Made by a program: the position numbers and the translations under genes. 64,000 nt of DNA from assembly GCA_014654775.1 (NCBI GenBank), contig JACVZW010000030.1, forward strand, positions 310,001-374,000, read 5' to 3'. The notes under the pieces are model-generated. The model did not search any database. It saw nothing but the letters and a program-made list of their open reading frames with translations, and was not told where the DNA came from. Below, piece after piece: positions 35,708 through 58,389 of the stretch. The DNA comes from Paracoccaceae bacterium (GTDB taxonomy: Bacteria; Pseudomonadota; Alphaproteobacteria; Rhodobacterales; Rhodobacteraceae). Position 1 is the first letter of the stretch, and every line of letters starts with the position of its first letter.

Positions 35708-36145
35708 TCAGTCCTGAATGGACTCAAGGTAGAGAACCATCTCCAGAACGCGCGCCCGTGCGATGGCTTCTGATCCATAGAGCGCGCCACGGTCCTCGGC
35801 TTCGGCCCGGAAACGCCCGCCGAAAACCGGCATGGGATCGCCATGCGCGCGCACCACACTGCGCCCGTCGATGATTTGCACGACAGTCAGAAACGGAAAC
35901 CGGCCCTCGTTGCGCACCGCCAATCCCGTCAGATCGGGGACAGGCGTGCGGAACATCCCGGCAATCGGCCCCTTCCCATCGGCGGCGTCGCCATGACAGG
36001 CCGCGCAGGCCGTCAGGTATTCCGCCTTGCCTACCGCGAATTCGTCCGCAGCGTTTTCCGCCGAGGCCGTCGAAACAAGGGCGGCAAGGGCAAGGGCTCC
36101 AAGACCGGGCGCGGAAAGCACCCGCAGACGACGAAAGCGCGACAT
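35708..36145 (-). CDS. c-type cytochrome, periplasmic
   Basis: A 145-residue cytochrome c. The signal peptide (VLSAPGLGALALAALVSTAS) is followed by a single haem-binding CAACH motif at about residue 49. A GKGPIAGMFRTPVPDLTGL segment and a candidate axial Met (PMPVFGGRF) follow. It is a small electron carrier. An FNR-type dyad (36207-36220) is centred 68 bp upstream of the ATG. The ATG at 36145 was chosen because it directly precedes the signal peptide. Confidence 0.85.
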   Translation of the reverse strand: MSRFRRLRVLSAPGLGALALAALVSTASAENAADEFAVGKAEYLTACAACHGDAADGKGPIAGMFRTPVPDLTGLAVRNEGRFPFLTVVQIIDGRSVVRAHGDPMPVFGGRFRAEAEDRGALYGSEAIARARVLEMVLYLESIQD

Positions 36146-36206
36146 GGAAGGACTCCGTTTCAGGATTGCGAGAGATGCAGGATGTGGCCTGCGCCCAGAA
36201 CGCTCA

Positions 36207-36220
36207 TTGACCGCAGGCAA
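36207..36220 (-). promoter_or_regulatory. Crp/Fnr-type dyad TTGAC-CGCA-GGCAA
   Basis: It keeps the TTG-N8-CAA frame of the FNR family. It is centred 68 bp from the start codon of the cytochrome gene at 36145. Confidence 0.55.
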
Positions 36221-36284
36221 TGACACCGAGCCGCAGTAGAGGCAGTTCCCTGTCCCCCTGCCCGTGACCGCCGGGCGAAGGGCG

Positions 36285-36298
36285 TTGTCCGCAATCAT
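36285..36298 (+). promoter_or_regulatory. Crp/Fnr-type dyad TTGTC-CGCA-ATCAT
   Basis: One mismatch in the outer right position. It is centred about 123 bp upstream of the DUF2267 start codon at 36415. Confidence 0.45.
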
Positions 36299-40114: not shown

Positions 40115-40765
40115 TCAGGCCGGCCAGCCTATCGGTTGCACGAAGGTTGCGAATTCATGCCGGGCCAATCCAAGGGCGCCCGCGATCGCCTCGCGGCTGA
40201 TCCCTCCGACAAGGCAGGTGCCCAGTCCGCGCGCCGCAGCAAAAAGATAAGCGTTCTGCGATGCCATCGCGGCATCGACCATCGCGTATAGCTGCTGCTG
40301 GTCCGCCGGACCCGCCGCCTTCAGGCGGCGCAGATCAGACACGAAGATCAAGCAGACCGGCGCCGTCGCGACAAAGGGCTGCGGTGAAAGCTGCGCGCGA
40401 ATGTCTTCGGCCTTCCAGACCCGCGCCGCTGCGGCATCCGGTTCGAAAACGACGACCCCGTCCTCGGTCGCAGCATGGACGATCAGGTCGGCAGCGCCGC
40501 GCCAGGACGGTACCGTGTGCAACCCTTCCTTCGGCCGGTTGATCCCGAAGACAGCCCAGAGCAGTTCGGCCAAAAGCGCGGGATCGATCTTCCGGTCGCT
40601 GAAGGCCCGCACCGACCGGCGCTGCCGCAAGGCTTCCGTCACCGTCAGCTCGGGCGGCGTGGCGGCCGGAATGCCCTTGGCCGACAGCGCAAAGATCGGA
40701 CCCGCCGTCAGCAGAAGGCTGCGACGCGACAGCGGCAGGTTGTTTGCGGGCGGGATCTGCAGCAT
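40115..40765 (-). CDS. Nitroreductase-family protein (SagB/ThcOx-like) with Tat-like leader
   Basis: A 216-residue FMN-dependent nitroreductase-like protein: TVTEALRQRRSVRAFSDRKI (the FMN-binding RRSxRxF signature), LAELLWAVFGINRP, and NAYLFAAARGLGTCLVGGIS. The N-terminus carries a twin-arginine-like segment, LSRRSLLLTAGPIFALSA. A GAGGAGGGGG Shine-Dalgarno precedes the ATG at 40765, deciding the start over 40834. An FNR-type dyad is centred 75 bp upstream. Confidence 0.82.
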   Translation of the reverse strand: MLQIPPANNLPLSRRSLLLTAGPIFALSAKGIPAATPPELTVTEALRQRRSVRAFSDRKIDPALLAELLWAVFGINRPKEGLHTVPSWRGAADLIVHAATEDGVVVFEPDAAAARVWKAEDIRAQLSPQPFVATAPVCLIFVSDLRRLKAAGPADQQQLYAMVDAAMASQNAYLFAAARGLGTCLVGGISREAIAGALGLARHEFATFVQPIGWPA

Positions 40766-40830
40766 GGGCGCCCCCTCCTCGTCCGAGGCTCTGTATTCCC
40801 CCACAATCTGGCGTGGCGAAGGCCGCTCTG

Positions 40831-41787
40831 TCATTGACCGCCATCATTCCCCGCAAGCAGCCTGCCAAGGCCAAGGTCAAGCCAAAGCAGCACACCGCTC
40901 CGGTTCAGATGGTCGGTGTCGAAGTAGTGGCGCGGGTCGGGTATCGCGCCGGAATGATCGATGATCGGCACGTCCAGACGGTGGGACAGCGCCGCCAGAC
41001 CGGGCGCAAGCCCCGGCAATTCGGGCAAGGCCGCCCGAAACCCCTCCGGCAGCGGCGGGCGCAGCAGCACCACGCGCGCGCCCTGTCCACGCGCCAGCAG
41101 GACCATCGCCTCCAGATCCTGCAACCCCCGATCAATCCCCCGATCCGCGCCGCCCGCAGGATAGAGAAAGGCCACCCGCGACCGGATCGCGGTGGCCGAA
41201 GGCCGGGGCGCGCTGTTGAACCGGTCGGCCACCGTCCATGTCGGGGCGGCAAAACGGCGACGGTCGTTGATCCGGGCGAACCCTGTGACCTGCGCCAGCC
41301 ATGTCTGCCACGGCAGGCCGCGCGCAACGGCCCGGGCCAGAACCCGCGCCGTCCGCGCATCCGCCGGAATCTTCGGCAACAGATCATCATCCGCCAGCCG
41401 ATCCTCGTTCCAGCGGCGGTCGGCAAAACCGAACTCGTCCAGCACGATCAGAACGGTCCCGCTCCGATGGTCGATGAACCAGCGCTCCGCGATCAACCGC
41501 AGGACAAACGGCCCCACACCGGGCGCAGCAAGCACTTCGGTCGTTTTCCCCGTGCGCGCCGCAATCAGGTCCGGAACATCGGCCGTGCCCAGCGGGATCG
41601 CATGCGACGCCCCAAGGATCAGCCAATCCACCTCTTCCGGTGCGGTCGTCATCGCCAAAAAGGGGGTCTGCACCGCCCCGGCCCGCAGCATTCGATCCGA
41701 CCAGACGAACAGGCCGCAGTAAAGTCCCCCGCCCAGCAGAAGGAACAGCACGATCCGCCAAGGATGCCATGTCTCAGAACCCGGCAT
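40831..41787 (-). CDS. SGNH/AlgX-like acetyl-handling protein
   Basis: A 318-residue protein with an N-terminal membrane helix (IVLFLLLGGGLYCGLFVW) and a periplasmic SGNH-hydrolase-like domain. The nucleophile region WLILGASHAIPLG carries the Ser-x-His arrangement, and the C-terminal DTDHLNRSGV supplies the second catalytic His/Asp. With the MBOAT protein encoded upstream it resembles AlgI-AlgJ/X pairs that O-acetylate extracellular polysaccharides. The ATG overlaps the MBOAT stop by 14 bases. Confidence 0.78.
   Translation of the reverse strand: MPGSETWHPWRIVLFLLLGGGLYCGLFVWSDRMLRAGAVQTPFLAMTTAPEEVDWLILGASHAIPLGTADVPDLIAARTGKTTEVLAAPGVGPFVLRLIAERWFIDHRSGTVLIVLDEFGFADRRWNEDRLADDDLLPKIPADARTARVLARAVARGLPWQTWLAQVTGFARINDRRRFAAPTWTVADRFNSAPRPSATAIRSRVAFLYPAGGADRGIDRGLQDLEAMVLLARGQGARVVLLRPPLPEGFRAALPELPGLAPGLAALSHRLDVPIIDHSGAIPDPRHYFDTDHLNRSGVLLWLDLGLGRLLAGNDGGQ
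40834..40847 (-). promoter_or_regulatory. Crp/Fnr-type dyad TTGAC-CGCC-ATCAT
   Basis: Lies over the final codons of the SGNH gene and is centred 75 bp upstream of the nitroreductase start. Confidence 0.55.
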
Positions 41788-43108
41788 AGATGAACTCCGC
41801 CCCCTGCCAGCGCCCCGCCAGCAGCAAAAGCGCAAGCGCCGCGTAAAACCCGGCCCAGCGCAAGGGCAGCGGCCAACCTGCAAGCCGTTCCGCTATGCCG
41901 CGCGGTCCCGCCGCCGCCTCGCCCAGAAACAGCAGCCCGACCAGACCGGCGCAGAGCAGATGGTCCGACGTATAGGGATGCGACAGGATCAGGGTCGGCA
42001 GCTCCCGCAGGCTCTGCCCGATGCGCCGCAGCAGCGTCACGCCCGCCTCTACACTGTCGGCGCGGAAAAAGACCCAAGCCGACAGGATCAGATGGAAGGT
42101 GACAATCCCCCGAAGGATGCGCGTCACAGTGCGTTCCGGGGCGGGAACCACCGTCTCCACCACCACGAAAACGCCATTCAGCGCCCCCCAAAGGACGAAC
42201 CCCCAGCCGACGCCATAGCCCAGCCCCGCGTGCCACATCCCCGACAGCAGGAAGACGAACATCACGTTCAGGATCTGCCGCGCCCGCCCCTTCCGGCTGC
42301 CGCCAAGGGGGATGAAAACGTAGTCCCGGAACCAGTTGCCAAGGGTGATGTGCCAGCGCCGCGCCCAGAACTCGGTCACGGTCGATGCCAGATAGGGCCG
42401 GTCGAAATTGCGCGACAGGCGCAGCCCGACAAAGGCCGACAGGGCGATTGCAATGTCGCTATAGCCCGAGAAGTCGCAATAAATCTGGAACGCGAAGGCA
42501 TAGACGGCCAGCAGCAGATCGACCGGCGCCGCGAATGCGGGCTGTGCGAAACCGGCAGCGACGATCGGAGCAAGGCTGTCGGCAATCACCACCTTCTTGA
42601 CCAGTCCTGTCATCAGATAGGCCAGACCCAGCGTTGCAAGTCCCGGTCTAAGGGCGATGTCGCGGAACTGCGGGATCAGGGTCCCCGCCCGCTCTATCGG
42701 ACCGGCCAGCAGCTTCGGAAACCAGACAAGATGCAGCAGGACATCGGACCATCCGCCCCTCCCCTGCCTGCGCCCCCCGTCCACGATCACGGCGATGGCC
42801 GTGAACACAAGGAAGGAAAGCCCCGGCGGCGCCCCCGGGTCCGGAAGGCGCGCAAGCTCGAAGAACCGTGCCCAGGCCAGAAGGGTCACAAGCGCGACGA
42901 TGCCCATACCCCTGCGCCCCGGGGCGGCGGTGGCAAGGGTGACGGCACCGACACCGCCCAGCCAGACCAGCCGCATCACGTCCGACGCGCCATAGAACCA
43001 CAGGCTGACCAGACCCAGCCACAGCCGCCTCGCCCGGACCGGCAGCAGACGCACTCCCGCAAGGACAAGGGCAAGGAACAGCCAGAATGTGAGGTCCGTG
43101 TAGGACAT
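41774..43108 (-). CDS. MBOAT O-acyltransferase (AlgI-like)
   Basis: A 444-residue polytopic membrane protein of the MBOAT superfamily. The core segment FWARRWHITLGNWFRDYVFI, then PLGGSRKG, and the catalytic His in FLLSGMWHAGLGYGVGWGF are typical of AlgI/PatA-type proteins that pass acyl groups across the membrane. It is paired with the SGNH gene downstream and starts 3 bases after a cytochrome gene, within the operon that begins at 47392. Confidence 0.9.
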   Translation of the reverse strand: MSYTDLTFWLFLALVLAGVRLLPVRARRLWLGLVSLWFYGASDVMRLVWLGGVGAVTLATAAPGRRGMGIVALVTLLAWARFFELARLPDPGAPPGLSFLVFTAIAVIVDGGRRQGRGGWSDVLLHLVWFPKLLAGPIERAGTLIPQFRDIALRPGLATLGLAYLMTGLVKKVVIADSLAPIVAAGFAQPAFAAPVDLLLAVYAFAFQIYCDFSGYSDIAIALSAFVGLRLSRNFDRPYLASTVTEFWARRWHITLGNWFRDYVFIPLGGSRKGRARQILNVMFVFLLSGMWHAGLGYGVGWGFVLWGALNGVFVVVETVVPAPERTVTRILRGIVTFHLILSAWVFFRADSVEAGVTLLRRIGQSLRELPTLILSHPYTSDHLLCAGLVGLLFLGEAAAGPRGIAERLAGWPLPLRWAGFYAALALLLLAGRWQGAEFIYAGF

Positions 43109-43111
43109 GGC

Positions 43112-43645
43112 CTAGTAAGAGGCACCTCCCGCCCGCAATTCCGGGGGGATGGCGTCTATCGGAATGCCCGCATTCACGACAAGGTAGTCAGCCAGTTGGT
43201 CCCGCTCGGCCTCCGTGAGGGGAATCTCCACATGGCTGGGCTTGCTCATCGTGCCCAGCCATGCCTCCTTCTCCCGTGCCTGCGTCACGACCACCGTGAC
43301 GATATGGCAGGACTGACAGCGCTCCAGCGTCATGTCGCGCCCGTCCGGCGGCAGTGCGGCGGGATCATCGATCGGTCCGGCATAGGCCAGATAATCCGCC
43401 AAGGTGCGGGCCTGCCAGTCATCCAGCCCAGTAAGCCCCGGAAGACCCTCGCCCGTGATCCGCGTCAGCCAATCCTCGGCAGTCTGTGAGGTGGCAAGCA
43501 TTTCGGCCAGCGACGGCTCCGCCGCCAATGCGGCGGCCAGCATCGTCCGCCCGCCTTCGGGCATGAAGGCGAAGTAATCCTCCTGCGCAGGGGCCGCGCC
43601 CGCAAGCAGCAGAAGCGGCGGCAGGACAAGCAACCCTGTCCTCAT
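43112..43645 (-). CDS. c-type cytochrome, exported, paralogue B
   Basis: A 177-residue protein. The signal peptide (LLVLPPLLLLAGAAPAQ) is followed by an N-terminal FAFMPEGGRTMLAAAL region and a single haem motif, RCQSCH, in LPPDGRDMTLERCQSCHIV (about 107-111). A candidate Met ligand is in TMSKPSH. It is a paralogue of the preceding cytochrome and 14 bases apart from it. Confidence 0.87.
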   Translation of the reverse strand: MRTGLLVLPPLLLLAGAAPAQEDYFAFMPEGGRTMLAAALAAEPSLAEMLATSQTAEDWLTRITGEGLPGLTGLDDWQARTLADYLAYAGPIDDPAALPPDGRDMTLERCQSCHIVTVVVTQAREKEAWLGTMSKPSHVEIPLTEAERDQLADYLVVNAGIPIDAIPPELRAGGASY

Positions 43646-43659
43646 TCTTCATCCTCCGG

Positions 43660-44172
43660 TCAGAACCGCAGCTCCGGCGGCACCTCATCCAGACGCATCG
43701 GCAGATTGATGGCCGAGTAATCGGCGAAGATCGCCCGCTCGCCCTCGGTCATCGGGATCGCGGCATGAAAGGGCGAGGCAAAGACCGACAGCCAGCCCTG
43801 CCGATCGCGCCGCTGCATCAGGTATCCCGAAAACAGCGAATGGCAGGACTGGCACTGCGCAAGGGCCATGTCGCGCCCGTCGCGCGGCAGGTCGGCTACC
43901 GGGTCCAGCCCGGCCTGCACCGGGGCGATGTGCGCCAGATAGGCGGCAAGGGTCGCCGCCTCGCGTTCCGTCAACCCCGATCCGGCCAGCGCAGCGCTCC
44001 ATTCCGCCGCGCTGCGCGTCTCGGCCAAGGCGGCCTGTTGTGCCCGGCTGTCCGGAAAGGCGCGGGCAAAGATCCCGCGCCCGCCATCGGGCAGGAACCC
44101 AAAGGGATCCCCATTCCCGACCGCCGCCGAGGCCAGCGGCACAAGCATCAAGGCCATCATGAATCGCCGCAT
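43660..44172 (-). CDS. c-type cytochrome, exported, paralogue A
   Basis: A 170-residue protein with a signal peptide (RRFMMALMLVPLASAAVG) and a haem motif in LPRDGRDMALAQCQSCHSLF (about 104-108). It shares the FLPDGGRGIFA and GRDMxLxxCQSCH blocks with the next gene. It overlaps the zinc-ribbon gene by 16 bases. Placement after a Tat-exported E1 pair makes it a plausible electron acceptor in the periplasm. Confidence 0.87.
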   Translation of the reverse strand: MRRFMMALMLVPLASAAVGNGDPFGFLPDGGRGIFARAFPDSRAQQAALAETRSAAEWSAALAGSGLTEREAATLAAYLAHIAPVQAGLDPVADLPRDGRDMALAQCQSCHSLFSGYLMQRRDRQGWLSVFASPFHAAIPMTEGERAIFADYSAINLPMRLDEVPPELRF

Positions 44173-44480
44173 CGTTCCATCCCCGCAAAGTCGAAAACCG
44201 GAACCGGCAGGGGATCGGCCGCCACGCATCCCGCAAAGCCATTGCCGCGCATCCTGTCCAACGCGACGACCGTCGCGTCATCGACATATTCCTCGCCACA
44301 GACGGGGCAGATCATTGCGGGAATGTTGCGCAGCACGACAAGCCCGTCGCCCTGCCAGAAGGCAGTGCTGATCCGCGCCTCCCGCAGCGGGCTGTCCGTG
44401 CAACGGTCGCAGACGATCCGCTGTGCCATCGCGCCGGACTGGATCGGCGCGGCATCCATGTTGCTGCAAGCGTGCTTCAT
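44157..44480 (-). CDS. YgiT-type zinc-ribbon protein
   Basis: A 107-residue protein with two CxxC knuckles, CDRC (about 24-27) and CPVC (about 57-60) followed by GEEYVDD. This is the pattern of the YgiT/MqsA N-terminal zinc-binding domain (VxRNIPAMICPVCGExY). The MqsA helix-turn-helix domain is not present. The start at 44480 lies 4 bases after the E1 beta stop. A later Met near residue 8 or 18 is possible. No export signal is seen, so it should be cytoplasmic. Confidence 0.75.
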   Translation of the reverse strand: MKHACSNMDAAPIQSGAMAQRIVCDRCTDSPLREARISTAFWQGDGLVVLRNIPAMICPVCGEEYVDDATVVALDRMRGNGFAGCVAADPLPVPVFDFAGMERCGDS

Positions 44481-44484
44481 GACC

Positions 44485-45453
44485 CTAGACCATCGTCTTC
44501 GCGGCGGCCACGATCCGCGCCGCATCCGGCCGCATCCACTTGAACATCTCGGGCGAGGCAGGCGGCGGCGCATCGGGAAAGGCGATCCGGCGGAACCGCG
44601 CGCCCTCCACGTTCTCGGCGCAGCGGGCCACGACCTCGGCCGCAGGGCCCAGCGTGTAATAGGTCTGGTCCACCGCCAGCAGGCGCTTGGTCTTCGCAAC
44701 CGACGCGACCAGCGTTTCGGTATCCATCTGCTTCAGGACGCGCAGATCGATCACCTCCACCGACATGCCCTCGGCACCCAACTGCGCCGCCGCCTCCAGC
44801 ACATCGGGCATTCCCCCGCCCGATCCGACAAGAGTGATGTCCGTCCCCTCCTGCCGCACCGCCGCCTTGTCGAGCGGCACCTCATAGGGCTCGTCCGGCA
44901 CCTCTTCGGACAGCATCCTCAGACCTGCGGGATAAAGATAGACCACCGGATCGGGACTGCGCAGCGCGGCATGCATCATCCCCTTCGCGTCATACGGGGT
45001 CGAGGGGATCACCGTCCGCACGCCCGGAATGTGCATATAGGTGGAATCGATCTCGTAATCCGAATGCTGCCCGGCAAAGCCCGGTGTCTGGCCCGTCATC
45101 TCCATCACAAAGACGATCGGCAAGGACGCCTTGCCCCCGGTCATGTGGCGCAGCTTGCCCGCATGGTTCTGGATCAGTTGGAACGGCATCCCTGCCCCTT
45201 GGTAGGGGATGTAGGTCGCCGCCCGGGACCCCGCGAGACCCGCCCCCAGCACAGCCGACGCCATCCAATTCTCGTCGATGCCCGTGTTGACCACGCGCTT
45301 GCGCCCGAACTCCGTTTCCAGATTTATCACCGGCATCCCGGCATTCGACGCCACCGGCGGCGTCAGTTCAAAGATCCAGACCATGGCCGGATCGGCCCGC
45401 ATCTCGGCCTGCACAGCCTCCAGAACGGAATACATCCATGTCTTGACGGTCAT
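44485..45453 (-). CDS. TPP-dependent 2-oxoacid dehydrogenase E1 beta subunit
   Basis: A 322-residue E1 beta subunit. The family run is VVNTGIDENWMASAVLGAGL, GFAGQHSDYEIDSTYMHIPG, VRTVIPSTPYDAKGMMHAAL, and a C-terminal ITLVGSGGGMPDVLEAAAQ domain. These are typical of pyruvate, acetoin and branched-chain E1 beta chains. No signal peptide is seen. AGGAGG precedes the ATG. It follows E1 alpha by 16 bases. No E2 or E3 gene follows. Confidence 0.9.
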   Translation of the reverse strand: MTVKTWMYSVLEAVQAEMRADPAMVWIFELTPPVASNAGMPVINLETEFGRKRVVNTGIDENWMASAVLGAGLAGSRAATYIPYQGAGMPFQLIQNHAGKLRHMTGGKASLPIVFVMEMTGQTPGFAGQHSDYEIDSTYMHIPGVRTVIPSTPYDAKGMMHAALRSPDPVVYLYPAGLRMLSEEVPDEPYEVPLDKAAVRQEGTDITLVGSGGGMPDVLEAAAQLGAEGMSVEVIDLRVLKQMDTETLVASVAKTKRLLAVDQTYYTLGPAAEVVARCAENVEGARFRRIAFPDAPPPASPEMFKWMRPDAARIVAAAKTMV

Positions 45454-45469
45454 CCTGTCCTCCTGACGT

Positions 45470-46666
45470 TCACGCGATCTGGCGGGGAAGGACCGCGCCT
45501 TCCGCAAAGACATGCAGCAGCCCGTCCTCGGGCTTGCAAAGCGGCTGTTCGGCCGCCCAAGCAAAGGCTTCGGCCACCTCGGCCTTCACCTCCGCCTCCA
45601 AGGCATCGGCCCCAGGCGCATCCAGCACGCCCCAATCGATCAGCGTCTTGCGGGCGATGTCGACCGGATCACGCTGCATCCATGCCCGCACCTCGCGCTC
45701 GGGCCGGAACGAGGTGATGGCCAGCGGATCATATCCGAAGGCACCCAGCTTCCCGACCTCGGCCCCCGGCGCACCCCAGTGGTTGTAGTAGCGATAGGTC
45801 TTGGCTTCGATGAAACTGGGGCCACCGCCCGCACGGGCGCGATCCACGGCCTCCTTCGCTGCATTGTAGACGGCAAAGACATCCTGCCCGTCCACGACCC
45901 GCGCGGGTATCCCATAGGCGCGGGCGGCATCGGCGATATCGGTATGCGGGCTGGAATAGCTGTAATGGGCGTATTGGTGATAGAGGTTGTTCTCCAGCAC
46001 ATAGATGAACGGCAATTGCAGCATCCGCGCGTTGTTCAACGCGGAATGGAAATGCGGCGTCGCGTAGGTGCCATCCCCGCCAAAGACCACCGCCACCTGA
46101 TCGGACCCCCGCGCGCGAAAGGCAAAGGCGGATCCCGTGGCGATCACATGGCCCGGCCCGATCATCCCATCCGCCCCCATGAAGCCGACGGCAGGGTCCG
46201 AGATATGCATCTCGGCCGCGTACCCACCGTTCAGCCCGGTCGAACGGAAATCCATCTCCGCCTGCATCCGCTTCATGTCCACGCCCTTGGCCAGCGCGTG
46301 CCCCGAAGGCCGATGCGTCGAATAGACAAGGTCGATCTGATCGAAGGGGCCGTCGTTGCGCAGCGCGGCACAGACGCCCGTCGCCACCGCCTCCTGCCCG
46401 GCATAGAAATGGTTGTAGGCGCGGTATTGCGGATCGCTCAGCATCCGGTCGGCCATCGTCCGTTCGTGCCAGCGGATGCGCAGGATCGTGCGCAGCATGT
46501 CCCTTAGGCGATCATCGGACAGATCCGTCGCGAAATAGCCGATCTGCCCGTCCGCCCGTGCCGCCGTCGCGGAAAACCCCGCGACCGCACCGGCAAGACC
46601 CGCCACCCGAAGAAAGCCGCGCCGCGTAAGCCCCTCTCCACTCCCATCCTCATGCGTTGCCGACAT
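45470..46666 (-). CDS. Tat-exported TPP-dependent 2-oxoacid dehydrogenase E1 alpha subunit
   Basis: A 398-residue E1 alpha subunit. The TPP/Mg motif GDG (197-199) in VVFGGDGTYATPHFHSALNN is followed by the paired Asn (226-227) in VLENN, and the substrate/TPP region STHRPSGHALAKG is near 116-128. Unlike ordinary cytoplasmic E1, the protein begins with a canonical twin-arginine signal: TRRGFLR at 14-20, a hydrophobic stretch VAGLAGAVAGFSATAA, and an AxA site ending at Ala38. The ATG at 46666 has GGGAGG 8 bases upstream. It overlaps the previous gene stop by 17 bases. The inferred function is oxidation of a 2-oxoacid in the periplasm, with electrons passed to the cytochromes encoded downstream. 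The E1 beta partner has no signal and would need to be co-exported. Confidence 0.9.
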   Translation of the reverse strand: MSATHEDGSGEGLTRRGFLRVAGLAGAVAGFSATAARADGQIGYFATDLSDDRLRDMLRTILRIRWHERTMADRMLSDPQYRAYNHFYAGQEAVATGVCAALRNDGPFDQIDLVYSTHRPSGHALAKGVDMKRMQAEMDFRSTGLNGGYAAEMHISDPAVGFMGADGMIGPGHVIATGSAFAFRARGSDQVAVVFGGDGTYATPHFHSALNNARMLQLPFIYVLENNLYHQYAHYSYSSPHTDIADAARAYGIPARVVDGQDVFAVYNAAKEAVDRARAGGGPSFIEAKTYRYYNHWGAPGAEVGKLGAFGYDPLAITSFRPEREVRAWMQRDPVDIARKTLIDWGVLDAPGADALEAEVKAEVAEAFAWAAEQPLCKPEDGLLHVFAEGAVLPRQIA

Positions 46667-47045
46667 GGCCAATCCTCCCATGGGTTCGTGTTCCCGTCAT
46701 TCTCCACCAGTCCGGCCCTTCTGCATTGTCGGCGATCAACGCAGCCCTCCGCCGTCCAAGAAAGAGGCGCCCGACCACCGTCATCACGCCGCGCAGCACC
46801 CCCGCCAAAGCCTTGGCCGACGGACGGGTCCAGTCCGGGGCGCGCGCCATCGCGGCCACCGACAGGGGCGGCACGATCAGCGCGATCACCCCGCCGCCAA
46901 CCGAAAGCAGGGCCGGGCCCGCGCCGACCGGTCCCGCCAGCATCCGGACCAGCCCCGCGATCACGCAGGCCCAAGCCGTGACAAGGACAAACACCAGCAC
47001 AAGGGTCAGCAGCGCCGACTGCATGACCCGCTGCAGCCCGGGCAT
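46650..47045 (-). CDS. Small membrane protein, holin-like
   Basis: A 131-residue protein with two hydrophobic segments (LLTLVLVFVLVTAWACVIAG and LLSVGGGVIALIVPPLSV) followed by a basic cytoplasmic tail. AAGGAG lies 8 bases before the ATG at 47045, which decides against the GTG at 47054. It pairs with the DUF883-like gene upstream (5-base gap), as at 14607-15301. Confidence 0.65.
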   Translation of the reverse strand: MPGLQRVMQSALLTLVLVFVLVTAWACVIAGLVRMLAGPVGAGPALLSVGGGVIALIVPPLSVAAMARAPDWTRPSAKALAGVLRGVMTVVGRLFLGRRRAALIADNAEGPDWWRMTGTRTHGRIGHVGNA

Positions 47046-47050
47046 TGGAC

Positions 47051-47392
47051 TCACTCCTTGCGGCGCAGGATCAGACCAAGGATCAGCCCGAAACCGACAA
47101 TCCCCAGCAGGCCGGCAAGGGCCTGTCCGGGGTGGTCGCGCACGGCGTGTTCGACGCGCGCCTCGACCTTCGCGACCCTTTCTCGCAGCTCATGCAGCAG
47201 ACGGCGCCCGTCGCGGATCAGGTCCTCAGACCCTGCCTCCAGCTCCGCGCCGATCTCATCGGCCCGGCCAACGCCATAGCTGCCGAGTCTGCGGGCCAAC
47301 TGCAGGGCCGCACGGCGCAGCTCTGCCAGTTCGGGATCGCCGGACAGCCGCCCGGCACGGGCATGATCGGGTTTGACAGCATCGTCCGGCAT
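47051..47392 (-). CDS. DUF883/YqjD-like membrane-anchored protein
   Basis: A 113-residue protein. A long hydrophilic helix (ELRRAALQLARRLGSYGVG, then RRLLHELRERVAKVEARVEH) is followed by a C-terminal membrane helix ALAGLLGIVGFGLILGLIL and the basic end RRKE. This is the tail-anchored YqjD/ElaB layout. GGAGGG precedes the ATG. It is the first gene of the nine-gene operon that runs to 40831. An FNR-type dyad is centred 74 bp upstream. Confidence 0.75.
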   Translation of the reverse strand: MPDDAVKPDHARAGRLSGDPELAELRRAALQLARRLGSYGVGRADEIGAELEAGSEDLIRDGRRLLHELRERVAKVEARVEHAVRDHPGQALAGLLGIVGFGLILGLILRRKE

Positions 47393-47459: not shown

Positions 47460-47473
47460 TTGACGGCGGACAA
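47460..47473 (-). promoter_or_regulatory. Crp/Fnr-type dyad TTGAC-GGCG-GACAA
   Basis: All six outer TTG/CAA bases are present. Centred 74 bp upstream of the DUF883-like start of the nine-gene operon. Confidence 0.6.
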
Positions 47474-47513: not shown

Positions 47514-47527
47514 TTGTCCCCCGTCAA
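47514..47527 (+). promoter_or_regulatory. Crp/Fnr-type dyad TTGTC-CCCC-GTCAA
   Basis: All outer bases match. It lies in the 306-bp divergent region, centred 178 bp upstream of the Hsp20 start and 128 bp upstream of the DUF883-like gene. The rest of this region shows no other recognised element. Confidence 0.6.
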
Positions 47528-57529: not shown

Positions 57530-57543
57530 TTGTCCGCCATCAA
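57530..57543. promoter_or_regulatory. Crp/Fnr-type dyad TTGTC-CGCC-ATCAA (no clear target)
   Basis: All outer bases match the consensus. It lies 63 bp after the end of exporter system 2, in a stretch with no well-supported gene beside it. Confidence 0.5.
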
Positions 57544-58375: not shown

Positions 58376-58389
58376 TTGACCACCGTCAA
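58376..58389 (+). promoter_or_regulatory. Crp/Fnr-type dyad TTGAC-CACC-GTCAA
   Basis: A perfect inverted pair, TTGAC and GTCAA. Centred 119 bp upstream of the SHOCT gene start. Confidence 0.6.

Follow-up and report, generated by a model that had tools for sequence, protein, structure and literature searches.

Can a 2-oxoacid dehydrogenase E1 work outside the inner membrane and pass its electrons to cytochrome c? E1 enzymes are key catalysts of the cytoplasm or the mitochondrion, where they transfer acyl groups to lipoyl arms, and the question is raised by a locus in a 64,000-nucleotide stretch of contig JACVZW010000030.1 (positions 310,001 to 374,000, hereafter the window) from a Paracoccaceae bacterium with a 4.5-Mb genome. 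A first-pass annotation of the window had described an E1α gene with a twin-arginine translocation (Tat) signal, followed by E1β, a zinc-ribbon gene and two cytochrome genes, and had proposed a thiamine diphosphate (TPP) enzyme that reduces cytochrome c in the periplasm. Our analysis extends this set to seven genes, and we hold with moderate confidence that the resulting cassette encodes a periplasmic 2-oxoacid:cytochrome c oxidoreductase, probably under FNR-type control, whose acyl product would go to a relay of two acyltransferases, one of the MBOAT (membrane-bound O-acyltransferase) family and one of the SGNH family. The exported E1 and its dedicated cytochromes, as first proposed, are backed by conservation, while the acyltransferase pair, the FNR-type sites and an acetate--CoA ligase found near some cassettes had been overlooked.

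A conserved seven-gene cassette

The seven genes lie on the minus strand, either overlapping or at most 16 bases apart. E1α (45470..46666; PF00676 (E1_dh), 4.8e-53) is predicted to be the Tat-exported α subunit of a TPP-dependent 2-oxoacid dehydrogenase, and is followed after 16 bases by E1β (44485..45453; PF02779 (Transket_pyr) and PF02780 (Transketolase_C)) and after four more by a YgiT-type zinc ribbon, presumably cytoplasmic (44157..44480). Two exported single-haem c-type cytochromes come next: cytA (43660..44172), with a signal and a CQSCH motif evident on reading, overlaps the zinc-ribbon gene by 16 bases, and cytB (43112..43645), also CQSCH, lies 14 bases further on. A DltB-like MBOAT acyltransferase (41774..43108) and a DltD/PatB-like SGNH acyltransferase/esterase with an N-terminal membrane anchor (40831..41787) complete the set. 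Re-reading bore out the annotated coordinates and frame of E1α, and coordinates, Pfam and NCBIfam agreed with the tight order of E1β, zinc ribbon and two single-haem CQSCH cytochromes. The annotated span (40831..47392) did cover the MBOAT and SGNH core genes, which its text left undiscussed; it also took in genes at 46650–47392, which we rejected as core members since they have matches beside only a few of the related clusters.

We scanned 84,980 species' genomes using an alignment of eight E1α and two short peptide patterns, a choice that divergent relatives may escape because only these two patterns were used, and found orthologous E1α genes at 31 loci with 72–92% identity. All are alphaproteobacterial (25 Rhodobacterales, 3 Hyphomicrobiales, 1 Rhodospirillales and 2 unplaced), and we rejected a local oddity on the strength of these 31 occurrences. 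Bearers include Rhodobacter amnigenus, Sediminimonas qiaohouensis and Roseovarius marisflavi, and a same-genus relative (G006) has an E1α 92% identical to that of the window. A search for the same gene order, which the first-pass annotation had suggested, found E1α–E1β–zinc ribbon–cytA–cytB–MBOAT–SGNH kept in each of the 31 loci up to the contig end; the zinc ribbon, cytA and cytB are each present in 30, MBOAT in 29 and SGNH in 28, all absences being contig ends. Seven further orthologous regions agree in gene order, six of them apparently from the same genomes as loci among the 31.

Presence is patchy. Genome searches, in which only a few top candidates from each genome were scored, found the cassette at >70% identity in 7 of the 292 genomes from the order (the window's included), with an eighth at 44%, in 2 of 61 relatives (again including the window's) and, of 398 genomes searched across the phylum, only in the window's own. 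Of 385 class genomes, two matched the cytochrome profile at E ≤ 1e-12: the window's own and G795, which has the same contig as L067, a cassette locus with E1. A plasmid search returned only relatives below 60% identity.

Mean pairwise identity is 0.82 for E1 (27 loci) versus 0.40–0.56 for the other parts, the cytA and SGNH values including wrong picks (a cytB frame taken as cytA in L057, a wrong short frame taken as SGNH in L055). The same picks enter the conservation counts of 29/30 for cytA and 26/28 for SGNH; a true L057 cytA exists and the L055 SGNH is intact. Alignments covered cytB from 15 of 30 loci plus the window, cytA from 10 of 30 plus the window, SGNH from 17 of 28 and MBOAT from 16 of 29. 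A few loci carry damaged frames. The cytA of L055 (12450–13010; a Kandeliimicrobium roseum isolate) is split across two frames, and the E1β frame of L073 (9972–10937; a Devosia metagenome-assembled genome) breaks early though the whole gene matches, by error or decay in both cases. In L068, a metagenome assembly, the MBOAT and SGNH frames are broken, cytA is short of one haem-motif cysteine and the contig stops inside SGNH.

A twin-arginine signal on E1α

The E1α signal (46553..46666) consists of T14-RRGFLR, a hydrophobic core and an A-x-A site at residues 36–38 (A36-R-A38), just as first annotated. RRxF[LM] and an uncharged run of 12–20 residues occur in 31 of 31 related E1α, and a loose A-x-A follows the twin arginine in 28. 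The first-pass annotation had named the same neighbourhood without a twin-arginine segment as evidence that would count against its proposal, and none of the 31 loci shows this arrangement. Among 30 other E1α, classed as ordinary by the absence of the twin arginine and not by tested location, none has the motif in the stretch tested. E1β had been described as lacking a signal, and inspection by eye of 31 E1β starts found none; TatC is present in eight of eight cassette genomes. These patterns support export of E1 through the Tat signal of its α subunit, with E1β hitchhiking, and service by dedicated cytochromes; the mature enzyme would then reside in the periplasm.

An intact catalytic core behind rebuilt entrance loops

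The exported protein belongs to the E1 family, with the GDG...NN TPP motif, the PF00676 domain and the catalytic His/Glu residues all present. H86, R119 and H296 of E1α are invariant in 32 of 32 sequences and E61 and H130 of E1β in 30 of 30 (the latter count leaving out the E1β of L058, at a contig end, and of L073, with its broken frame), and the invariant residues align with the His/Glu of solved E1 enzymes. For the Geobacillus stearothermophilus E1, the accessible part of PMC2663715 names E59-β, H128-β and H271-α, and describes inner and outer loops that lie over the active site and interact with the lipoyl domain; an I206A-α substitution in the inner loop took artificial-acceptor (dye-coupled) activity up to 1331% and pyruvate dehydrogenase (PDH) complex activity down to 35%.

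These are the loops that differ in the cassette enzyme. The inner loop (residues 228–242; 45941..45985) is rich in Tyr and His and holds 5–7 Tyr/Trp/His in all 32 signal-bearing E1α versus 0–4 in the 30 others. Position 231 in this loop corresponds to I206 by counting from the NN motif, if the N in the published primer is taken as the second N of that motif; it is Gln in all 32, and Met, Val, Glu or Ala in the others (0/30 Gln). The outer loop (residues 297–320; 45707..45778) is enlarged to 24 residues in 32 of 32 versus 8–11 in 30 of 30, and 31 of 32 have Ser in place of an E1α Glu that all 30 others keep. The rebuilt entrances fit direct oxidation rather than lipoyl transfer, and from them we infer an E1 that has given up serving the lipoyl arm and lets an oxidant act on it directly, perhaps by electron hopping along Tyr/His residues. 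In a tree of 12 signal-bearing E1α (11 of the 31 loci and the window) and the 30 others, the former occupy one side of a branch with support 100 and a stem of 2.24 changes per column; their nearest kin are unsure because long branches meet in the tree.

Scores against the NCBIfam PDH E1 equivalogs fall below cut-off for both subunits (α, 214.4 versus 393.85 bits; β, 181.7 versus 454 bits). The first-pass annotation had remarked that no E2 or E3 follows, and this extends to the eight cassette genomes, in all of which no PF00198 (E2) or PF02852 (E3) match lies within 10 kb of the cassette, the nearest E2 match being ~11 kb away in G183. All eight carry ordinary E2/E3 elsewhere, so use of such partners is excluded by location only. 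We rejected an ordinary PDH or acetoin operon on the sub-cut-off scores and the lack of adjacent E2/E3. Membership of a PDH complex thus fails on the features tested (family cut-offs and adjacent partners), and the enzyme may still work in an E1-like way.

Cytochromes and an acyl-transfer pair

The CxxCH motif of cytB is present in 30 of 30 loci, its AlphaFold2 model has a pLDDT of 86.9, and cytA is its paralogue (42%). The zinc ribbon scores 41.5 bits against the NCBIfam family YgiT_finger (TIGR03831; cut-off 20.2) and keeps a four-cysteine pattern, with Cys or His in the last position, in 30 of 30; a role in assembly or export control is our guess. The C-terminal tail of cytB, RAGGA[ST]Y (43115–43135), is present in 30 of 30 despite 56% mean protein identity, and looks like a recognition or modification site. 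The window also encodes, at 35708–36298, an additional exported c-type cytochrome (CAACH) that has matches close to some of the cassettes.

Across the 31 loci, E1 is accompanied by MBOAT and SGNH wherever the contig extends far enough to include them. The MBOAT protein matches PF03062 (5.3e-23) and, by profile, solved DltB (8.3e-35); its invariant His is kept in 17 of 17 sequences, and the C-terminal acyl-shuttle motif FXYXXF, FIYAGF in the window (41777..41794), in 27 of 29, the exceptions being L067 (contig end) and L068 (broken frame). The SGNH protein has the fold, Ser and DxxH of an acyl shuttle, and matches DltD, PatB and TesA; DltD heads its Foldseek list with TM-scores of 0.38–0.46, and none of the 50 VIA matches listed is DltD. 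Both sets of motifs agree with the acyl-Tyr mechanism given for PatA/PatB in the accessible part of PMC12148441. No second MBOAT is found in seven of eight cassette genomes, and among 198 genomes of the family, counting the cassette bearers, 41 have one or more.

Regulation and neighbouring genes

Palindromes of the form TTG[AT][CT]N4[AG][AT]CAA lie within 300 bases upstream of E1α in 17 of 32 loci, with 20 sites in 9.6 kb. By comparison, 300 random first-order Markov sets gave a mean of 0.11 and a maximum of 2, and the insides of 28 clusters, 170 kb in all, hold one site. Five sites occur in the window where 0.23 would be expected; three lie in the 900 bases upstream of E1α (46726..46739, just upstream of the gene, 47460..47473 and 47514..47527). 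We take TTGWYN4RWCAA to be a site of the FNR/DNR/FixK kind, and the cassette is probably under FNR-type control for use at low oxygen. The other two palindromes of the window are far from the cluster, at 57530–57543 and 58376–58389.

Recurring neighbours occupy varying positions and include Crp/Fnr regulators (13 loci) and phosphoribosyltransferase, Hsp20, universal stress and aminoglycoside-phosphotransferase-like genes. Seventeen further families recur in at least 6 of 31 flanks, and none of the 12 that Pfam names is a polymer-synthesis gene; the other five are unnamed or false frames. Antisense frames cluttered the recurrence clustering. Eight of 31 clusters have an acetate--CoA ligase nearby; two of the eight ligases were tested and both score above the NCBIfam cut-off, and one more was tested with Pfam. 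Acyl carrier protein genes are found close to five of the 31 clusters; the L064 copy follows SGNH on the same strand at a distance of ~110 bases, and the L083 copy sits between ligase and E1α. The encoded carriers pass the Pfam PP-binding cut-off and fall below the NCBIfam cut-offs. Compared with the roles that we take to be those of a DltA-like ligase and a DltC-like carrier, the neighbours thus offer the ligase at 8 of 31 and the carrier at 5 of 31 clusters. In Defluviimonas salinarum (L082 17567–21147) the ligase stands ~1.5 kb past the cassette and is directly followed by an ordinary PDH E1, with α and β in one frame, ~3 kb past SGNH.

A proposed mechanism and its alternatives

In the mechanism we favour, E1α and E1β would fold and bind TPP in the cytoplasm, perhaps helped to assemble by the zinc ribbon, and the complex would leave as one through the Tat system on the signal of E1α. 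Once in the periplasm, the enzyme would decarboxylate a 2-oxoacid, pyruvate being the likeliest, and the TPP enamine would be oxidized in single-electron steps through the Tyr/His-rich mouth of the active site, with electrons going to cytA/cytB and on to the cytochrome c pool. The acyl group on TPP would be released as the acid or passed on by SGNH, in an acyl-Tyr relay with MBOAT. The sequence itself gives the gene content and its conservation, the signals, the relay motifs, the unaltered catalytic residues and the changed loops; what we infer is where the mature enzyme sits, its substrate, the electron path and the direction and role of the relay.

Several observations weigh against an oxidoreductase of this kind. 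A G-E-D/E/G stretch of other E1β is replaced by T-P-P, and all 30 cassette sequences compared have Gly where 27 of 27 others have Phe; the substrate pocket differs, and pyruvate as the substrate is therefore a guess. The cytochromes match known families weakly, cytB scoring 25 bits against SorB (cut-off 93) and a profile match to 1jmx_A having E 0.015. Signal prediction with generic Tat hidden Markov models, a check that the first-pass annotation had proposed, gave a split outcome: 6 of 8 cassette members match at E ≤ 1, but the E1α of the window does not, so that the Tat assignment rests on motif conservation. No FNR/DNR-type site was seen at 15 of 32 loci. The acetate--CoA ligase was not seen as a neighbour at 23 of 31 loci, and a search at E ≤ 1e-150 found it in three of eight cassette genomes and not in the other five, the window's among them. 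Lastly, MBOAT/SGNH pairs described in the accessible part of PMC12148441 carry acyl groups outward and acylate polymers, so the pair in the window could be an unrelated envelope acylation system.

That last point underlies a tentative alternative, which we consider unlikely though worth keeping in view, namely that the enzyme is a periplasmic acid-forming oxidase and that MBOAT/SGNH performs a separate envelope acylation within the same low-oxygen response. Pairs of known role do acylate polymers, the ligase that neighbours 8 of 31 clusters would allow acetate to be recovered, and acetate is the product of the E1 dye assay in the accessible part of PMC2663715; but none of the 12 Pfam-named recurring families makes a polymer, and the pair is inseparable from E1.

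The same inseparability, together with the scarcity of other MBOAT in cassette genomes (none in seven of eight, against a background of 41 of 198 family genomes with any) and the acyl carrier protein genes near five clusters, speaks for a transmembrane pyruvate dehydrogenase. Here the acyl-TPP of E1 would give its acetyl first to the Ser of SGNH and next to the Tyr of MBOAT, from which it would go inward onto CoA or an acyl carrier protein, the cytochromes replacing E3 and the relay replacing lipoyl-E2. If E1 and the relay are coupled, flow must be inward, because cytochrome c should be unable to reduce acyl-TPP. We find this version doubtful and rank it low because the neighbouring ligase points to acetate in free form and the relays that have been described work outward; the carrier proteins, moreover, pass only the Pfam cut-off.

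That the exported TPP enzyme is a carboligase or non-oxidative decarboxylase, with the cytochromes serving another step, seems improbable: E. coli PDH E1 is able to carboligate (PMC7696235, in its accessible part) and the E1β pocket residues are changed, but two dedicated cytochromes and a Tyr/His-rich entrance loop argue otherwise. A cytoplasmic E1 of the ordinary kind, whose start was misread or which has a membrane anchor, is favoured by the failure of the generic models to match the window protein, but we rejected a misread start on the retention of the twin arginine in 31 of 31 loci and, with A-x-A in 28 and no twin arginine in the tested stretch of the 30 other E1α, regard this reading as very improbable.

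Relation to known systems

Every part of the cassette comes from a known family. We found no description of an exported E1, or of a system joining these parts, in the open literature, including the accessible part of a Tat survey (PMC3305326) checked by four terms.

Pyruvate, branched-chain and acetoin dehydrogenase E1 (α2β2) share the fold family, TPP motif and catalytic acid/base residues of both subunits with the cassette E1, which differs by its Tat signal, the lack of E2/E3 in the cassette, the rebuilt entrance loops, the Glu-to-Ser change and the sub-cut-off PDH scores. PatA/PatB, DltB/DltX/DltD and AlgI-type shuttles share the MBOAT invariant His, the C-terminal FXYXXF and the SGNH Ser and DxxH; the cassette pair, in contrast, is tied to an exported E1 and cytochromes, without a polymer-synthesis gene among its named recurring neighbours. 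PoxB also yields acid plus respiratory electrons, and is a single FAD-containing cytoplasmic chain of another TPP family. The outcome would be common to both, but no FAD domain or single-chain TPP/FAD enzyme was found in the cassette. SorB and quinohaemoprotein-type cytochrome domains share weak profile matches with cytA and cytB, which differ in an extra haem-less N-terminal half, the invariant cytB tail and a TPP-enzyme partner.

A lineage that exports E1 and has remodelled precisely those loops that take in the lipoyl arm, with cytochromes and an acyl-Tyr relay alongside, would, if our reading holds, have a new way to oxidize 2-oxoacids. We know of no earlier metabolic use of MBOAT/SGNH chemistry, and the cassette would be the first. 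If the transmembrane route were true, the carbon and the electrons of a 2-oxoacid would enter the cell separately, the acid itself not being taken up. The cassette is small and present in named strains, so each step is testable.

An accessory nitroreductase gene

Past SGNH, and overlapping it by 4 bases in the window, is a minus-strand nitroreductase-family gene (40115..40834; PF00881) with a twin-arginine-like segment of its own. We regard it as accessory: it lies near 4 of 31 clusters (L053, L054, L055 and L070), and in L070 it is on the other strand.

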